A DNA stretch of 64,000 bases from Alkalibacter rhizosphaerae (GTDB taxonomy: Bacteria; Bacillota; Clostridia; Eubacteriales; Alkalibacteraceae), in assembly GCF_017352215.1 (NCBI RefSeq), contig NZ_CP071444.1, positions 1,736,001 to 1,800,000 of the forward strand, given 5' to 3'. Below, one piece after another: positions 35,715 to 51,723 of this stretch. The translations under genes and the position numbers were made by a program. Every line of letters begins with the position of its first letter. The first letter of the stretch is position 1. The notes beneath the pieces were generated by a model. The model was not told the origin of the DNA, made no database searches, and worked only from the letters and a program-made list of their open reading frames with translations.

Positions 35715-35838
35715 CGGACCTTCTTGTTTTTGTGTGGAAAAAACGCTGAAAATATTATAAAATAGTCCTATCAAACGATTTTCTGTGCAATTGTATGGAT
35801 ATGTATACAAAAATTACAATGAGCGAGGGGGAGCAACA

Positions 35839-37920
35839 ATGAAAACGTATCCAACCGGCAGTATCAGAAACGTAGCAATCCTGGGGCATAGCGGCAGTGG
35901 AAAGACCACGTTGACGGAAGCCATGGCCTTTAACGCAGGGATCATTGACCGTATGGGAAAGGTGGAAGACGGATCGACCATTTCCGATTACGACAATGAG
36001 GAAATCAAACGAATGATCTCCATCAATGCCACTACCGTACCCATGGAATATGGCGGACACAAAATCAACGTGCTGGATGTTCCCGGCTATTTTGACTTTT
36101 TTGGAGAAGCAGTGAGTACCCTTCGGGTCAGCGATGCTGCTGTGCTGGTTTTGGATGCCTTGTCTGGAATTGAAGTGGGAACGGAAAAAGACTGGGAAAT
36201 GATCGAAAACGAAAACATCCCTGCCATTCTGGTCATCAACAAGATGGACCGGGAAAATGTACGATTTGAAAAAATCATGAACGACCTGAAAGAAAAGTTT
36301 GGCAACAAGGTGGTTCCTTTTGAGTTGCCTTTTGGAGAAGGACTGGACTTTAATGGCGTCATCAATGTTGTGGACATGAAAGGGCGAGAACGACGGGGAG
36401 ACCGATGCTTCGACATGGCGGTACCGGATGAATTGCAAGCGGAATTGGAGCCCTACCGGGAAATGATCATGGAGTCCGTGGCCCAAACCGATGAAGACCT
36501 GATGGAGAAATATTTTGCCGGGGAAGAATTGACCAATGCAGAGATCCATGCCGGTTTGCGCAAAGGTGTTTTAGAAGGAGAACTCATCCCCGTGTTGTGT
36601 AGTTCCGGAAGCAAAAACATCGGAGTGGAAACGCTGATGAGCATGATCATCGAATACTTCCCGTCTCCGGCGGACCTGCTGGGAGAACCCTTTACCCGAC
36701 CAAACGGAGGAGATTCCGATGTACGAAAATACGACAGCGCGGCACCAGTGGCCCTTCAGGTATTCAAGACCATTGCAGACCCCTACGTGGGCCGATTGTC
36801 CCTGTTCAAAGTCATATCCGGAACGTTAACGACAGGCATGGAATTATTGAATACAACGAAAAATAAAAAAGAAAAGATCAATCATATTTATTTGCTTCGG
36901 GGCAAAAAACAGGTGGAAGTGGAGAACCTGCAGGCAGGCGATATCGGTGCCCTGTCCAAGTTGTCCGACACCACCACGGGAGATACCCTGTGCGATCCGA
37001 AGGATCCCTTGGAGTTTCGACCGCTGGTTTTCCCGAAACCGGTCATCGCCATGGGCGTGGAACCAAAATCCAAAGGGGACGAGGACAAGATCGGAAATGG
37101 TTTTGCCAGACTCCAGGAAGAAGACCAGACCCTGCATGTTGAGCGAAATTCGGAAACGAAGCAGACCCTGATCTCCGGCTTGGGCGAGATGCACATCGAG
37201 ATCATGTGCGAAAAGCTGAAAAGCAAGTTCGGCATCGAAGTCATGCTGGAAGAACCCAAGATTCCTTATCGGGAAACCATCAAGAAAAAAGCAACGGCAG
37301 AAGGAAAACACAAGAAGCAATCCGGTGGTAGAGGCCAGTTCGGTCACGTGCACATCGATTTTGAACCCGTCGGCGACCCAAATGTGGATTTTGAGTTTGT
37401 GGACAAGGTGGTAGGCGGCGCCGTTCCAAGAAACTTTATTCCTGCAGTTGAAAAAGGGTTGCAGGATTGCATCAAGGAGGGCGTTCTGGCAAAATATCCG
37501 GTGGTTGGACTCAGGGCCACCCTGTTTGACGGATCCTTCCATGCTGTGGATTCTGACGAAATGTCCTTTAGAATGGCGGCCAATCTTGCCTACAAAAAAG
37601 GAATGAAGGAAGCCAACCCTGTTATCCTGGAACCCATTTACAAAGTGGAGATCGTGGTGCCGGAAGATTACATGGGAGACATCATGGGAGATTTGAACAA
37701 GAAGCGGGGACGCATCTTGGGAATGGAGCCCATGGAAGGCGGAAAGCAAAAGATCCTGGCGGAAGCTCCTTTTGCCGAAATGTTCAAGTATGCAACGGAA
37801 CTAAGGTCCATGACCCAGGCCAGGGGAGATTTTTCCATGGAGTTTGCCCGCTATGAAGAATTGCCTGGATCCTTGGCGGAAAAAGTGATCGCAAAAGCGG
37901 AAGAAGAGAACAATCACTAA
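35839..37920 (+). CDS. Elongation factor G-like GTPase (EF-G paralogue)
   Basis: A 693-residue protein with all EF-G domains. G1 is GHSGSGKTTLTEA rather than GHIDAGKTT; G3 is DVPGYFDF, so Tyr84 stands where canonical EF-G has the catalytic switch II His; G4 is NKMDREN. These features define the EF-G-like group, distinct from housekeeping fusA and from Tet(M). GTP hydrolysis may be slow or differently triggered. It is transcribed separately from the sigma genes; ATG 35839 follows GAGGGGGAG. The role is unknown. Confidence 0.88.
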   Translation: MKTYPTGSIRNVAILGHSGSGKTTLTEAMAFNAGIIDRMGKVEDGSTISDYDNEEIKRMISINATTVPMEYGGHKINVLDVPGYFDFFGEAVSTLRVSDAAVLVLDALSGIEVGTEKDWEMIENENIPAILVINKMDRENVRFEKIMNDLKEKFGNKVVPFELPFGEGLDFNGVINVVDMKGRERRGDRCFDMAVPDELQAELEPYREMIMESVAQTDEDLMEKYFAGEELTNAEIHAGLRKGVLEGELIPVLCSSGSKNIGVETLMSMIIEYFPSPADLLGEPFTRPNGGDSDVRKYDSAAPVALQVFKTIADPYVGRLSLFKVISGTLTTGMELLNTTKNKKEKINHIYLLRGKKQVEVENLQAGDIGALSKLSDTTTGDTLCDPKDPLEFRPLVFPKPVIAMGVEPKSKGDEDKIGNGFARLQEEDQTLHVERNSETKQTLISGLGEMHIEIMCEKLKSKFGIEVMLEEPKIPYRETIKKKATAEGKHKKQSGGRGQFGHVHIDFEPVGDPNVDFEFVDKVVGGAVPRNFIPAVEKGLQDCIKEGVLAKYPVVGLRATLFDGSFHAVDSDEMSFRMAANLAYKKGMKEANPVILEPIYKVEIVVPEDYMGDIMGDLNKKRGRILGMEPMEGGKQKILAEAPFAEMFKYATELRSMTQARGDFSMEFARYEELPGSLAEKVIAKAEEENNH

Positions 37921-37927
37921 GGAGCCG

Positions 37928-37967
37928 AACACCCTGACGGACATACCTCGCCCGCCAGGGTGTTTTT
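37928..37967 (+). terminator. Intrinsic terminator after the EF-G-like gene
   Basis: ACACCCTG pairs with CAGGGTGT, extended inward with one mismatch; T-run at 37963-37967. Confidence 0.75.
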
Positions 37968-37986
37968 GTACAAATCATGAACGATG

Positions 37987-38016
37987 GCCGCATCTCCAAC
38001 AGGATGCGGTCTTTTT
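37987..38016 (+). terminator. Second terminator hairpin upstream of the RAYT-like gene
   Basis: GCCGCATC pairs with GATGCGGT around an eight-base loop; CTTTTT follows. It insulates the next operon from the EF-G-like gene. Confidence 0.7.
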
Positions 38017-38050
38017 GCTTTACTTTTTTGGGGGATGTGATACAATGAAG

Positions 38051-38078
38051 TTGACAAAAAGAACCGTCCCTATTGACA
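38051..38078 (+). repeat. REP-like half element upstream of the RAYT-like gene
   Basis: Contains GAACCGTCCC between two TTGACA copies (38051-38056, 38073-38078). Its ACCGTCCC core is shared with the long palindrome at 51678-51723. No matching second arm is seen nearby. It may be a decayed REP/RAYT-type repeat. Confidence 0.4.
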
Positions 38079-38103
38079 ATTTGAGCGGAAAGGGTTGTGT
38101 TGC

Positions 38104-38913
38104 ATGGCGAGAATTCCGAGAAAAGAATGCAAAAGTAGATATTATCACATCCTGGTGGAAGGCCGAACGGACAAGGATATTTTTGCGGATCCCAGCGACA
38201 AGGAAAAAATGCTGGAGATCATGGAGCGGGTATTGGAAGAAAGCAACGTATCCGTATATGCCTACTGCATCATGGACAACCATGCCCACTTTATTGTTCA
38301 GGAAGGGGAAGGGGACATTTCCCGATTCATGAAGAGGATCAACGGATCTTATGCAGTATATTACAATCGCAAGTACGGAGAGCGAGGACAGGTTTTTTAC
38401 GACCGGTTCAAAAGCGAAAACATCCGGGACATGGAACATCTTATGCGGGTGATGCGTTTCATCCACAACAATCCGGTCAACAGCGGTTCTGTCCCCAAGC
38501 AACGGGATTATCCATGGAGCAGCTACCGGCAGTATGTATTGTCGATCCAACGATCGTCCCTATTGAAGAAAGAACATATTCTGGTCTGGTTTTCCCGGGA
38601 TCAGAAGGTGGCCATGGACAAATTCGTGGTATTCATGCAGGAGAAGAGCAACGACATCTATTTGGACCTGGAAGAAAGCATTGAAAAGACGGTACAAGGC
38701 ATGATTCGAAAATACTTGACAAAAAACCATCTTCAGTTGGAGGAACTTGGGTATAAAGAAAATGTATTGCATCGAGATCGATTGATCCAACTGGTCAGGG
38801 AGGTCGGCGGGTTTTCCATCCGGAAGATCGCTGATTTGCTGCAACTGAATCGAGGTACGGTGTACAACGTGTTGTCCCGGTCCAACAAACCGGGGGAGGA
38901 AAGGAATGATTGA
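38104..38913 (+). CDS. RAYT-like Y1 transposase homologue, probably domesticated
   Basis: A 269-residue Y1_Tnp (REP-associated tyrosine transposase) homologue with C-terminal HTH. The HUH metal motif is intact (His60 and His62 in MDNHAHFIV), as are the NNPVNSG and YPWSSY motifs. The nucleophilic tyrosine, normally in R-Y-I-H-x-N-P-V, is Phe119 (MRFIHNNPV), so strand transfer chemistry should be lost. The C-terminus holds IRKIADLLQLNRGTVYNVL, a helix-turn-helix. The gene heads mcsA-mcsB-clpC in the place usual for ctsR and overlaps mcsA by 8 bp. ATG 38104 follows GGAAAGGG. A regulatory role is an inference. Confidence 0.8.
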   Translation: MARIPRKECKSRYYHILVEGRTDKDIFADPSDKEKMLEIMERVLEESNVSVYAYCIMDNHAHFIVQEGEGDISRFMKRINGSYAVYYNRKYGERGQVFYDRFKSENIRDMEHLMRVMRFIHNNPVNSGSVPKQRDYPWSSYRQYVLSIQRSSLLKKEHILVWFSRDQKVAMDKFVVFMQEKSNDIYLDLEESIEKTVQGMIRKYLTKNHLQLEELGYKENVLHRDRLIQLVREVGGFSIRKIADLLQLNRGTVYNVLSRSNKPGEERND

Positions 38914-39421
38914 AGTGCTGTGCGACAACTGCAAAGAACGACAAGCCACCATTCATATCACCAAAATAATCAACGGACAAAAAAAAGAACATCATTTGTG
39001 CGACCAATGCACTTCTTTGGATAAATTGGGGAAGGAAGCATTTGATTATACAGGGTTCATTTCCGATGTTGCAAACGACGGCAAAAGAAATCCGTCCAAA
39101 GAGCAACCGGGGGAACGGACATGCAGTCGATGCGGAATGACCTATGAATTTTTTCGAAAGCATGGAAAATTTGGTTGTGGAGAGTGCTACGACGCCTTTG
39201 AACCAATGATCGTTCCCATGATCCGACGGATGCACGGCAAAGACCGGCATATCGGCAAAGTGATCAAAAACGGCGATCGAATGTTCCAGCGAAAGCGGGA
39301 ACTGGAAGTCCTTCAGGCAAAATTGGACGAGGCAGTGGAAAAGGAAGAATATGAAATGGCGGCCCAATATCGGGACCAGATCAAAGCACTGGTCAGCCAG
39401 ACGGAAGAAGTAGAGGACTGA
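38906..39421 (+). CDS. mcsA: McsA, activator of the protein arginine kinase
   Basis: A 171-residue zinc protein with CxxC pairs (CDNCKE, CDQC, CSRCG, CGEC) and a C-terminal UVR motif (LQAKLDEAVEKEEYEMAAQYRDQI split across the tail). It stimulates McsB and helps target regulators to ClpCP. It starts inside the end of the RAYT-like gene with GGGGGAGG upstream, so translation is coupled to that gene. Confidence 0.92.
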   Translation: MIEVLCDNCKERQATIHITKIINGQKKEHHLCDQCTSLDKLGKEAFDYTGFISDVANDGKRNPSKEQPGERTCSRCGMTYEFFRKHGKFGCGECYDAFEPMIVPMIRRMHGKDRHIGKVIKNGDRMFQRKRELEVLQAKLDEAVEKEEYEMAAQYRDQIKALVSQTEEVED

Positions 39422-39437
39422 GAAGGAGGACGAGACC

Positions 39438-40469
39438 ATGGGATCATGGAAGAATGAGGACAAGGAGCGGGACATCGTCATCAGCAGCAGGGTGCGGCTC
39501 GCTCGAAACATCAAAGACATGCCTTTTCCGGTATTGCTTCCGGAAAACCGGGCCCGACATTTGACCAAGACCATCGAGGAATGTTTGAATTCCAACGAAG
39601 GGTTGGCAACGACTTTCAAGAAATTTGACCTGTCGGAGCTGAAAAACAATGAAAAGCGGGTCTTGGTGGAAAAACACCTGATCAGCCGGGAATTGGGGAC
39701 CCACTGGGGAGCTGCCGTATTTATCAACGACGGGGAAGATTTGAGCATCATGGTCAACGAAGAAGATCATATTCGGATCCAGTGCATTTTGGACGGGTTT
39801 CAATTATACAACACCTATGAGCAGGCAGACAAAATGGACGACGTCCTGGAAGGATGCATGGAATTTTCCTTTCACGAGCGATTTGGTTATCTGACTTCCT
39901 GTCCCACCAATGCAGGAACGGGAATGCGGGCTTCCGTCATGCTCCACTTGCCGTCCATGACACTGAACAACCAGATCCACTCCATGATGATGACATTATC
40001 CAAATTTGGATTGACCATTCGAGGGATCCATGGAGAGGGTACCCAGGCCTTGGGTGATCTTTATCAGATCTCCAATCAAAACACCATGGGAGTTACAGAG
40101 CATGAGATCATCGATACCCTTCATGATGTAGCCAGGGAGATCATTAAAAAAGAAAGAGATCTGCGTTATGACATCTTGCAAAACAATCGGATCTATTTGG
40201 AAGACAAGATTTATCGGGCCTACGGGATCTTATCCAATGCCAGGTCCATCAATTCGGAAGAGAGCATGAAGCTTTTGTCTTTGGTACGTCTGGGAGCAGA
40301 TCTGGAACTGTTGGATCAAAAGCTGTCGGTGATCAATCGGCTCTTGCTGGACATCCAGCCGGGGATCTTGGCCAGTACCTATGGAGAAGCCATGAACGAC
40401 ATGGAAAGAGACCGGGTGCGGGCGGAACACATACGAAGAGAGTTAATGGAAAAAACAATAGAAGAATAG
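39438..40469 (+). CDS. mcsB: Protein arginine kinase McsB
   Basis: A 343-residue guanido-kinase-like enzyme that phosphorylates arginine in misfolded or regulatory proteins, marking them for ClpCP. Phosphagen-kinase features are visible: [18 protein letters not shown] at the N-terminus, the catalytic loop [19 protein letters not shown] and the C-terminal pArg-binding region. Together with mcsA and clpC it forms the class III heat-shock operon; normally CtsR is its repressor and target. Confidence 0.95.
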
Positions 40470-40480
40470 GAGGAAGTGAC

Positions 40481-42916
40481 ATGGCCATATTTGGACGATT
40501 TACAGAAAAGGCACAAAAGGTATTGATGCTCTCCCAAGAGGAGGCCAAAAAACTAAACCACAATTATATCGGTTCGGAACATTTGCTGCTGGGTCTGATC
40601 CAGGAAGGAGAAGGTATTGCAGCTGTTGCTCTGAAGAACCTGGGAGTCCAATACGAGAAAGCATCCATGCAGATCGAGACCCTTTTGGGACGTGGCGAAG
40701 ATCAGGTAGAGGAGATCATAGGATACACCCCGCGCACCAAGAAGATTTTGGAGTTAAGTCTGATGGAGGCTAGGGCCCTCAATCAAAGCTATATCGGAAC
40801 GGAGCATATCCTACTGGGATTGGTTCGGGAAGGGGAAGGGATCGGTGCAAAAATACTCAGCGATCTGGGATTGGATTTTGAAAAGATCCGGGAAGAGATC
40901 GTGAAGCTGATGAACACATCCAGCAACCAGGCCCCCAAAGCCCAACAGGCAAAAAACAGCAACACGAAAAATTTGGACAAATACGGAAGAGATTTGACCG
41001 CCATGGCCGATGAAGGTCGACTGGACCCGGTCATCGGACGAGACAAGGAGATCCAGAGGGTGATCCAAATCTTGAGCAGGCGGACAAAAAACAATCCGGT
41101 CCTCATAGGGGAACCCGGCGTTGGTAAAACTGCGGTGGCGGAAGGCTTGGCTCAAAAGATCGCTTCGGGAGACATACCGGAAAATCTGAAAGACAAAAGA
41201 GTGGTCTCCCTGGATCTGTCATCCATGGTCGCCGGGGCAAAATATCGGGGAGAATTTGAAGATCGCCTGAAAAACACTATGGAAGAGATTCTGGAGGACG
41301 GCAACATCCTTTTGTTCATCGACGAAATGCATACCATCATCGGTGCAGGAGCTGCAGAAGGGGCCATCGATGCATCCAATATCATGAAACCGGCTTTGGC
41401 CAGGGGAGAATTGCAGGCTATAGGAGCCACCACCCTGGATGAATACCGAAAACACGTGGAAAAGGATGCAGCCTTGGAACGGCGTTTTCAGCCGGTGGAC
41501 GTTGGTGAACCCACCAAGGAAGAAGCGGTGGAGATCCTTCGAGGTCTACGGGATCGATACGAAGCCCATCACAAAGTGACCATCACCGACGAAGCCCTGG
41601 AGGCGGCGGTGGAATTATCGGATCGCTACATCAACGACCGATATTTGCCGGACAAGGCCATCGATCTTATCGATGAAGCGGCATCCAGGATCCGCCTCAA
41701 CATGTTGACGGCTCCGCCGGACATCAAGGAATTGGAAGAGCAGATCGAGAGATACCAGCAGGAAAAGGAAGAAGCGGTAGCAGCTCAGGATTATGAAAAA
41801 GCCGCCCAGATCCGGGATTTGGAAAACAAGGCGAAAAACAAGCTGGAAGAAGTGACCATGAATTGGAAAAATAAAAACAACATAGGGGCTGCAGGAGAAG
41901 TTGTCGCAGACGACATCGCACAAATCGTATCCATTTGGACCGGAGTTCCGGTGAAAAAACTGGCCCAGGAAGAATCGGAAAAACTGTTGAACATGGAGGA
42001 GGTCCTCCACAAGCGGGTCGTAGGGCAGGATGAAGCGGTGAAAGCCGTGTCTAAAGCCATCAGAAGGGCCAGAGTAGGGTTGAAAGACCCCAAGAGGCCC
42101 ATAGGTTCCTTCGTGTTCTTGGGACCGACTGGTGTAGGAAAAACTGAGCTGAGCAAGGCTCTGGCGCAAATCATGTTTGGCGATGAAGACAACATGATCC
42201 GCATCGACATGTCGGAATATATGGAAAAACATGCCGTGTCCCGTCTGATTGGATCCCCTCCGGGATATGTGGGGTATGATGAAGGCGGACAATTGACGGA
42301 AAAGGTGAGACGAAAGCCCTACTCGGTCATTTTACTGGATGAGATCGAGAAAGCGCACCCGGACGTATTCAATATTTTGCTGCAGATCCTGGAAGACGGT
42401 CGATTGACCGACGGCAAAGGGAGAACGGTGGATTTTAAAAATACCGTCGTCATCATGACATCCAATGTAGGGGCTCATACCATCAAAAAAGGAAAGACAT
42501 TGGGCTTTTCCGCATCACAGACCCAGAATCAGGATGAATACGACAAAATGAAAGAAAACATTTTAGAGGAATTGCGACGAACCTTCCGTCCGGAGTTCAT
42601 CAACCGGTTGGATGAAGTGATCGTATTCCACCAGCTGGACGACAAGCATATCGGGGACATCATTGAGATCCTTTTGGAACAGTTGTCCAAACGATTGAAA
42701 GATTTGGAGATCGACTTGTCATTCACCGATGAAGTCAAGCATTATTTGGCTGAAAAAGGAACCAATTTGGAATATGGGGCAAGACCCTTGCGCCGTACCA
42801 TCCAGAAGGAAGTAGAAGACCGATTGTCCGAGGAATTGCTTCTGGGCACGGTCATCAAAGGTCAATCCATCGAAGTGGCACTTGAAGATGGGAAGCTGAC
42901 GTTTTATAATAAGTAG
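40481..42916 (+). CDS. clpC: ATP-dependent Clp protease ATP-binding subunit ClpC
   Basis: An 811-residue Hsp100 unfoldase. Order: double Clp_N repeat (1-145), AAA1 with Walker [14 protein letters not shown], middle domain with a UVR-like helix (about 420-460), AAA2 with Walker [15 protein letters not shown], and C-terminal D2-small domain. It partners ClpP and is activated by McsB or adaptors. It is the last gene of the operon; a strong terminator follows. Confidence 0.97.
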
Positions 42917-51661: not shown

Positions 51662-51723
51662 AAAAATGGGGACGGAAAAATGGGGACGGTGACTTTTTTT
51701 GAAAAAAGTCACCGTCCCCATTT
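51662..51723. repeat. REP-like palindromic element with tandem repeat
   Basis: Two 14-bp copies of AAAAATGGGGACGG (51662-51675, 51676-51689) run into a perfect 22-bp inverted repeat (51678-51699 with 51702-51723, two-base centre). The palindrome is centred on T-rich/A-rich arms and lies between convergent genes, the usual position of REP elements. It could also terminate transcription in both directions. Its GGGACGGT core recurs at 38063-38070. Confidence 0.8.

Follow-up and report, generated by a model that had tools for sequence, protein, structure and literature searches.

In Bacillota, CtsR is the repressor of the clpC operon, and its repression is relieved by heat or by McsB arginine phosphorylation followed by ClpCP degradation. 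It has not been settled what REP-associated tyrosine transposases (RAYTs, also TnpA-REP) do for the host cell. TnpA-REP subclass 2.1 equals RAYT group 1 and is probably the same as TIRYT (PMC6006769, PMC3733652), in which a helix-turn-helix (HTH) is combined with terminal inverted repeats; the RAYT grouping is reportedly that of Bertels and colleagues (see PMC6006769). The Y1 fold also occurs in the IS608 and ISDra2 transposases, and a laboratory Tyr-to-Phe mutant of ISDra2 has been crystallised with DNA (2xo6, by its title). A RAYT acting as regulator of a clp operon was not found in the literature searched, which was judged mainly on titles and the beginnings of abstracts.

Here, a 64,000-nucleotide stretch of Alkalibacter rhizosphaerae DNA (contig NZ_CP071444.1; hereafter the window) was analyzed, in which the gene order on the forward strand is fusA paralogue, RAYT, mcsA, mcsB and clpC. 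The RAYT-derived gene (38104–38913; ATG at 38104, TGA at 38911–38913) encodes 269 aa, and its product, from the first gene of the operon, is the proposed repressor. It is followed by mcsA (38906–39421) and the protein-arginine kinase gene mcsB (39438–40469), both identified with NCBIfam and Pfam, and by clpC (40481–42916), which was named by reading the sequence, without a family search, and by tblastn synteny. The upstream neighbor, an EF-G-like gene (35785–37920), was also named by reading the sequence. A consensus match to a terminator-like hairpin (37986–38011, forward strand) lies between this fusA paralogue and the operon promoter, and no Rfam family matched at gathering score between positions 37000 and 39500.

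The locus resembles the CtsR system in that the gene standing first, before mcsA-mcsB-clpC, encodes a putative repressor of its own operon, for which a candidate site lies at the promoter. Unlike CtsR, however, the protein belongs to an unrelated family, its putative site is a 27-bp palindrome instead of tandem heptads, and a single site was found where CtsR has a regulon. With subclass 2.1 and TIRYT the locus shares the Y1 fold, a C-terminal HTH_23 domain and a terminal palindrome with a GGGAC core, whereas its catalytic Tyr is replaced, one repeat stands in place of a flanking pair, only one full copy of the palindrome was found in the genome and the gene is kept in a housekeeping operon. 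The hallmark of an active RAYT, repeats on both flanks and dispersed elsewhere, was absent at the 12 mcsA-linked loci examined, with one full copy per genome in 15/15 genomes. The Y1 fold is common to the IS608 and ISDra2 enzymes and the window protein; those enzymes act in transposition, whereas the window protein carries an HTH and its Phe119, which parallels the ISDra2 mutant, is a natural change.

The window protein matched Pfam Y1_Tnp over residues 12–123 (52.2 bits, cut-off 23, E 8e-14) and HTH_23 over residues 226–266 (29.1 bits, cut-off 24.6, E 8e-7), and scored slightly below the cut-off of NCBIfam REP_Tyr_transpos (79.6 against 80 bits). Its domains comprise Y1 (residues ~1–145) and the HTH (residues ~218–260, encoded at 38755–38883), which has the SIRK-IA-LL-LNRG-VY type motif of the mcsA-linked clade and was modeled by AlphaFold as helices at 218–235, 239–246 and 250–260 (47 sequences, mean pLDDT 92.4). 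The top solved structural match was 4er8 (Z 18.2, rmsd 2.6, 162 residues aligned), titled as a REP-associated tyrosine transposase with a REP hairpin. The same search with the whole model gave no match for the C-terminal part, which was not modeled alone, and this result carries no weight. In a phmmer alignment to 4er8 with an E-value of only 0.012, Phe119 (codon 38458–38460) was aligned with the Tyr counted as Tyr115, and Asn123 with Asn119, the third metal ligand (PMC6006769). The HUH motif, His60-Ala61-His62 (38281–38289), is retained in translation and alignment; by sequence, H60, H62 and N123 thus remain in the window protein and the nucleophile is missing. Overall, it is a RAYT/TnpA-REP homologue, most likely of the subclass 2.1 type (Y1 plus C-terminal HTH), a subclass assignment based on the HTH and the repeats, as the published classification of PMC6006769 was not applied.

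CtsR itself (PF05848) had no match anywhere in the window's genome at E 0.001 and none in the 67 genomes of the order, compared to 172/245 genomes in a sample of the class (Clostridia). This class sample was relied on as the positive control because the control panel was flawed: B. subtilis was included, yet neither CtsR nor McsB was matched there, and B. subtilis has both. Using a CtsR-type heptad pattern and up to three mismatches, 19 matches were found in the window against a shuffle mean of 25.8, no excess over chance, and none of them falls in 37920–38104. The possibility of a ctsR gene or heptad at the locus was rejected on these grounds. In 10/10 loci picked from the 172 CtsR-bearing Clostridia, the CtsR match lies directly before mcsA-mcsB-clpC, and fusA lies upstream of ctsR in three of the ten (two at a distance of 0.3–0.4 kb, one at 1.2 kb), from which we conclude that the RAYT gene occupies the ctsR slot. 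HrcA is present in the window's genome, so that other heat-shock control is not excluded.

Searching 61 genomes identified orthologues directly before mcsA-mcsB in 6/6 genomes of the window's family as well as in two other families of the order. McsB was found in 19/67 genomes of the order, and 15 of these 19 have a RAYT gene before mcsA, including two (G007 and G023) in which the gene is truncated by a contig end. The linked loci with named records belong to Alkalibacter mobilis and Alkalibaculum species, the others being labeled Eubacteriaceae. Among 84,980 species genomes, 111 relatives were found, and 12 of the best 80 are mcsA-linked, all within this group of anaerobic bacteria. The four mcsB genomes without a RAYT in front are the three of family f2 and genome G024. 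In two of the three f2 genomes fusA directly precedes mcsA with gaps of 107 bp and ~310 bp, which are too short for a ctsR or RAYT gene, and in the third only 1 kb of sequence lies ahead of mcsA before the contig stops. The gene preceding mcsA in G024 is divergent and purA-like by reading. These four loci (L149, L150, L151 and L152) carry mcsA-mcsB-clpC without a CtsR match, a RAYT in front or the palindrome, indicating that the operon can do without either. In a further family, f4, McsB and CtsR were unmatched in all 40 genomes.

The 13 full-length linked proteins grouped as one clade (95/92) among 90 RAYTs in a phylogenetic tree, with three subclades corresponding to three families, and a tree of McsB and ClpC placed the RAYT-less f2 as sister to the rest (99/99). 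Given this position of f2, the simplest history is that CtsR was lost in the order and the RAYT gained once, after f2 had diverged, and later lost in G024; a gain before the f2 split followed by two losses remains possible.

Catalytic decay was assessed in an alignment of 96 proteins, 13 of them full-length and mcsA-linked and 83 unlinked, the latter defined by the absence of an mcsA or mcsB match in the stretch examined (some stretches stop at short contigs). The HUH motif is intact in 83/83 unlinked proteins and lost in 3/13 linked ones, and the column of Phe119 holds Tyr in 82/83 unlinked proteins compared to five Phe, seven Tyr and one Ser among the linked. The complete set of four catalytic residues survives in only one of the 13 linked proteins, compared to 81/83 among the unlinked (Fisher 2e-12, with rows that are not independent). 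The losses differ by family, as the Tyr is lost in 5/6 proteins of the window's own family (f1), the Asn in 4/4 of f5, where it is replaced by His, and the HUH in 3/3 of f3, and we infer that the linked families lost catalysis by different routes. Paralogues fetched from five f1 genomes had all four residues in 8/8 cases (24 listed). The one exception among the linked proteins, that of Alkalibaculum sporogenes (G005, locus L036), retains the full set and may represent an early stage of the change. Of the claims made in the initial annotation about this gene, a RAYT-like protein with a C-terminal HTH and an 8-bp overlap with mcsA (mcsA start 38906, gene end 38913) held, the former with the Pfam matches, alignment and fold model now in hand. 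A kept HUH motif held for the window protein, with the loss in three linked orthologues to be added, and Phe119 at the nucleophile position held as well, by the 4er8 alignment and the Tyr of the unlinked relatives, with the amendment that it is not conserved among orthologues. No assay excludes another nucleophile in place of residue 119.

The HTH motif is retained throughout the linked clade. Among linked proteins the identity is 53% in the HTH and 42% in the Y1 domain, compared to 25% and 43% among unlinked ones. Inside f1 alone, however, the HTH (53%) is no better conserved than Y1 (56%), so that constraint on the Y1 domain persists, which speaks against a simple view in which only the HTH matters; H60, H62 and the Y1 domain are retained in this family. 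In the model of an f3 protein that lacks HUH, both the Y1 domain and the C-terminal helices are present (pLDDT 89.6). A dN/dS of 0.055 was obtained from the single usable pair, for which dS was saturated at 3.2.

The initial annotation had overlooked a 27-bp palindrome, TGACAAAAAGAACCGTCCCTATTGACA, at 38052–38078, here the operator candidate. A palindrome whose length is always 27 (TGACA-17-TG(T/A)CA) occurs upstream of the RAYT gene in 13/13 readable linked loci; its distance from the start codon is 25–79 bp at 12 of them and 260 bp in G004. When the 19 mcsB genomes were searched at E 0.01 with a sequence model built from 11 loci, a full-length site was found in the 15 RAYT-bearing genomes, four of which are absent from the model, at one position per genome in 15/15, and no full site was found in the remaining four genomes. 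Only 150 first-look candidates out of 1241–2774 were scored per genome, so weaker extra sites may have been missed; in G002, 17 further partial, core-only matches were seen. In the window's genome, 38052–38078 is the only match with up to three mismatches and the only strong model match. To avoid circularity, a matrix was also made from the other two families alone, with which the window site scored 34.0 and the runner-up in 64 kb 9.8; in the reverse test, the site ranked first in 7/7 f5 and f3 regions containing it. A wider regulon in the window's genome was considered and rejected, as there is one full site and, leaving aside its own match on the opposite strand, the other matches are partial with E 0.09 or worse, those inspected having other arms (left ATCA, not TGACA). 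A REP-type single-strand hairpin was likewise rejected for the window site, the only one folded: as single-stranded DNA it showed no gain in folding over shuffled sequences (z 0.0 and 0.5), a result that fits a duplex operator.

The palindrome lies on or beside predicted promoters, with an operator position relative to the promoter that varies between families. In 7/13 loci the right arm TTGTCA is itself the predicted -35, exactly 17 bp from TATAAT or TACAAT; in four f1 loci, including the window, the palindrome starts 5–11 bp after the predicted -10; and in two f1 loci an 8-bp gap separates its end from a predicted -35 downstream. All of these positions suit control of initiation. In the window, the preferred promoter (38019–38046, forward strand; TTTACT-16 bp-TACAAT with TG before the -10, 9/12 consensus matches) ends 5 bp ahead of the palindrome. 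A rival prediction, TTGACA-18-GACAAT at 38051–38080, spans the palindrome and scores 10/12, but the former is preferred, its layout being shared with G001, G002 and G003.

Similar palindromes were found upstream and, inverted, downstream of the unlinked RAYT genes L066, L080 and L088, in agreement with published descriptions of TIRYTs (PMC6006769, PMC3733652), whereas a second repeat was found at none of 12 linked loci examined, each having the upstream site only, and we infer that the linked lineage retained one repeat. Under a strict test (exact 5-base arms and a GGGAC/GTCCC core within 250 bp), upstream regions scored positive in 8/13 linked and 45/85 unlinked cases compared to 126/1984 random stretches, and a -35 started in or at the edge of the strict palindrome in 4/13 linked and 15/85 unlinked cases. 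At unlinked loci such as L038, L042, L052, L055 and L077, the repeat arm TTGACA coincides with the -35 of the RAYT's own promoter. Self-repression may on this account predate the move to mcsA, and the repeats together with the -35 overlap in unlinked relatives suggest that protein, repeat and promoter layout may have arrived together. It is possible that the terminal repeat persists partly through doubling as a -35.

Taken together, we consider it likely that a catalytically dead transposase came to act, together with a terminal repeat of its own, as an autoregulated pair of repressor and operator succeeding CtsR, although binding, repression, dimerization and the order of events are inferred. 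In this view, ctsR would have been lost before any RAYT arrived, and an element consisting of a subclass 2.1 RAYT gene and terminal palindromes would then have settled between fusA and mcsA in a shared ancestor of three of the order's families. A single palindrome would have persisted ahead of the gene, at or next to the promoter from which the new operon RAYT-mcsA-mcsB-clpC is transcribed, while the protein lost DNA cleavage and kept its fold and HTH. The protein would bind the 27-bp palindrome as double-stranded DNA through the HTH, probably as a dimer, and would block RNA polymerase, repressing its own operon and supplying locally what CtsR supplies elsewhere. By analogy, the release signal may be heat or the action of McsB-ClpC on the protein, as for CtsR.

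The position of the gene, the single clade, the loss of catalytic residues, the one full site found per genome and the proximity to promoters are seen in the sequences. Its sequence places the protein outside the CtsR family, and from the catalytic residues we infer that it is no longer a competent RAYT. That it works like CtsR for one operon is probable, in the absence of binding or expression data. Against this reading stand the intact catalytic set in G005, the f1 HTH that does not exceed Y1 in conservation, the site 260 bp out in G004, the operator place that varies by family, the best-scoring window promoter, which is not the preferred one, the mcsB operons of f2 and G024 that have neither CtsR nor a RAYT nor the site, and the chance that the repeat is kept partly for its use as a -35. 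The remaining claims of the initial annotation can be judged on the same evidence. An absent ctsR was confirmed for the whole genome and all 67 genomes of the order, and the lack of a CtsR-type heptad upstream held for 37920–38104 at up to three mismatches. A survey of related genomes, which it had proposed, has now been run; ctsR in close relatives, or the gene occurring only as an unlinked insertion, would have refuted it, and neither was seen (0/67 for ctsR; 15/19 mcsB genomes with the gene before mcsA). Recruitment as the operon's regulator is supported by this recurrent position, the single clade, the repeated catalytic loss with the HTH kept and the conserved palindrome by the predicted promoter, DNA binding itself being inferred. 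The alternative that the protein is a client of McsB-ClpC gained and lost no support and remains a mere possibility.

Three rival explanations were weighed. An ordinary resident RAYT could have landed before mcsA by chance, its palindrome being a mere terminal repeat without a role in the operon. The protein is indeed a clear RAYT homologue, unlinked RAYTs with such repeats are common (45/85 compared to 126/1984 random stretches) and the G005 copy has all catalytic residues. However, the gene has been retained before mcsA across three families as one clade, at least one catalytic residue is lost in 12/13 linked proteins while 8/8 f1 paralogues are intact, and no second repeat occurs in 12 linked loci, with one full copy per genome, which together render this explanation very unlikely. 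We regard as similarly improbable a regulator at the level of RNA or single-stranded DNA, in which the Y1 domain would bind the palindrome as a hairpin in the mRNA 5' leader or in single-stranded DNA, like RAYTs on REP hairpins. It is favored by the palindrome lying just downstream of the predicted -10, hence within the leader, in G000–G003 (G000 being the window's genome), by the Y1 domain and H60/H62 retained in f1, and by solved relatives that bind hairpins (4er8, by its title). Conversely, the palindrome lies upstream of the predicted start in the other 9/13 loci, the window site shows no folding beyond that of shuffles, and f3 has retained both palindrome and HTH without HUH.

Less remote, though still unlikely, is that the protein acts as an activator instead of a repressor, or mainly as a client or adaptor of McsB-ClpC with the promoter site secondary. 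The site directly upstream of the -35 in G004 and G005, an activator-like position, and the overlap of the RAYT-derived gene with mcsA in the window are in line with this, whereas the overlap of the site with the -35 or the predicted start region in 11/13 loci favors blocking.

The preferred reading, that of a RAYT-derived repressor, can be extended to a bolder one, in which a self-regulated transposase cassette (an HTH-Y1 protein with a terminal repeat that, in some unlinked relatives, would already have provided the -35 of the cassette's promoter) was exapted as a unit to serve as a stress repressor and replaced an already lost CtsR. Catalysis would have been lost via different residues in three families, and the protein may itself be a substrate that McsB marks and ClpCP degrades, which would complete a proteolytic feedback loop. 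With all of these parts taken jointly, we lean slightly against this version. As far as the repressor reading itself holds, the locus would present a natural RAYT without a nucleophile that has kept its DNA-binding part and is tied to one promoter and one operon, and it suggests how an unrelated protein can take over the gene slot of a core stress repressor. The combination of palindrome, HTH and operon makes the repressor claim testable.

Other repeats in the window's genome share the core of the palindrome and differ in their arms. A dispersed hairpin repeat, present in the window at ~51680–51719 and genome-wide (G000:C1), consists of inverted pairs of AAAAGTCACCGTCCCC; its 60 half-site matches in the genome are mostly arranged as such pairs, and it looks like a REP-type family. 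This repeat flanks an intact RAYT paralogue at G000:C1:923.2–924.5 kb, which belongs to the same protein family as the mcsA-linked protein and whose repeats have a CCGTCCC core; unlike the linked protein, the paralogue has H, H, Y and N intact, and its half-sites are spread over the genome. A second RAYT paralogue of the same genome (G000:C1:803111–803884) contains an in-frame stop and resembles a pseudogene.
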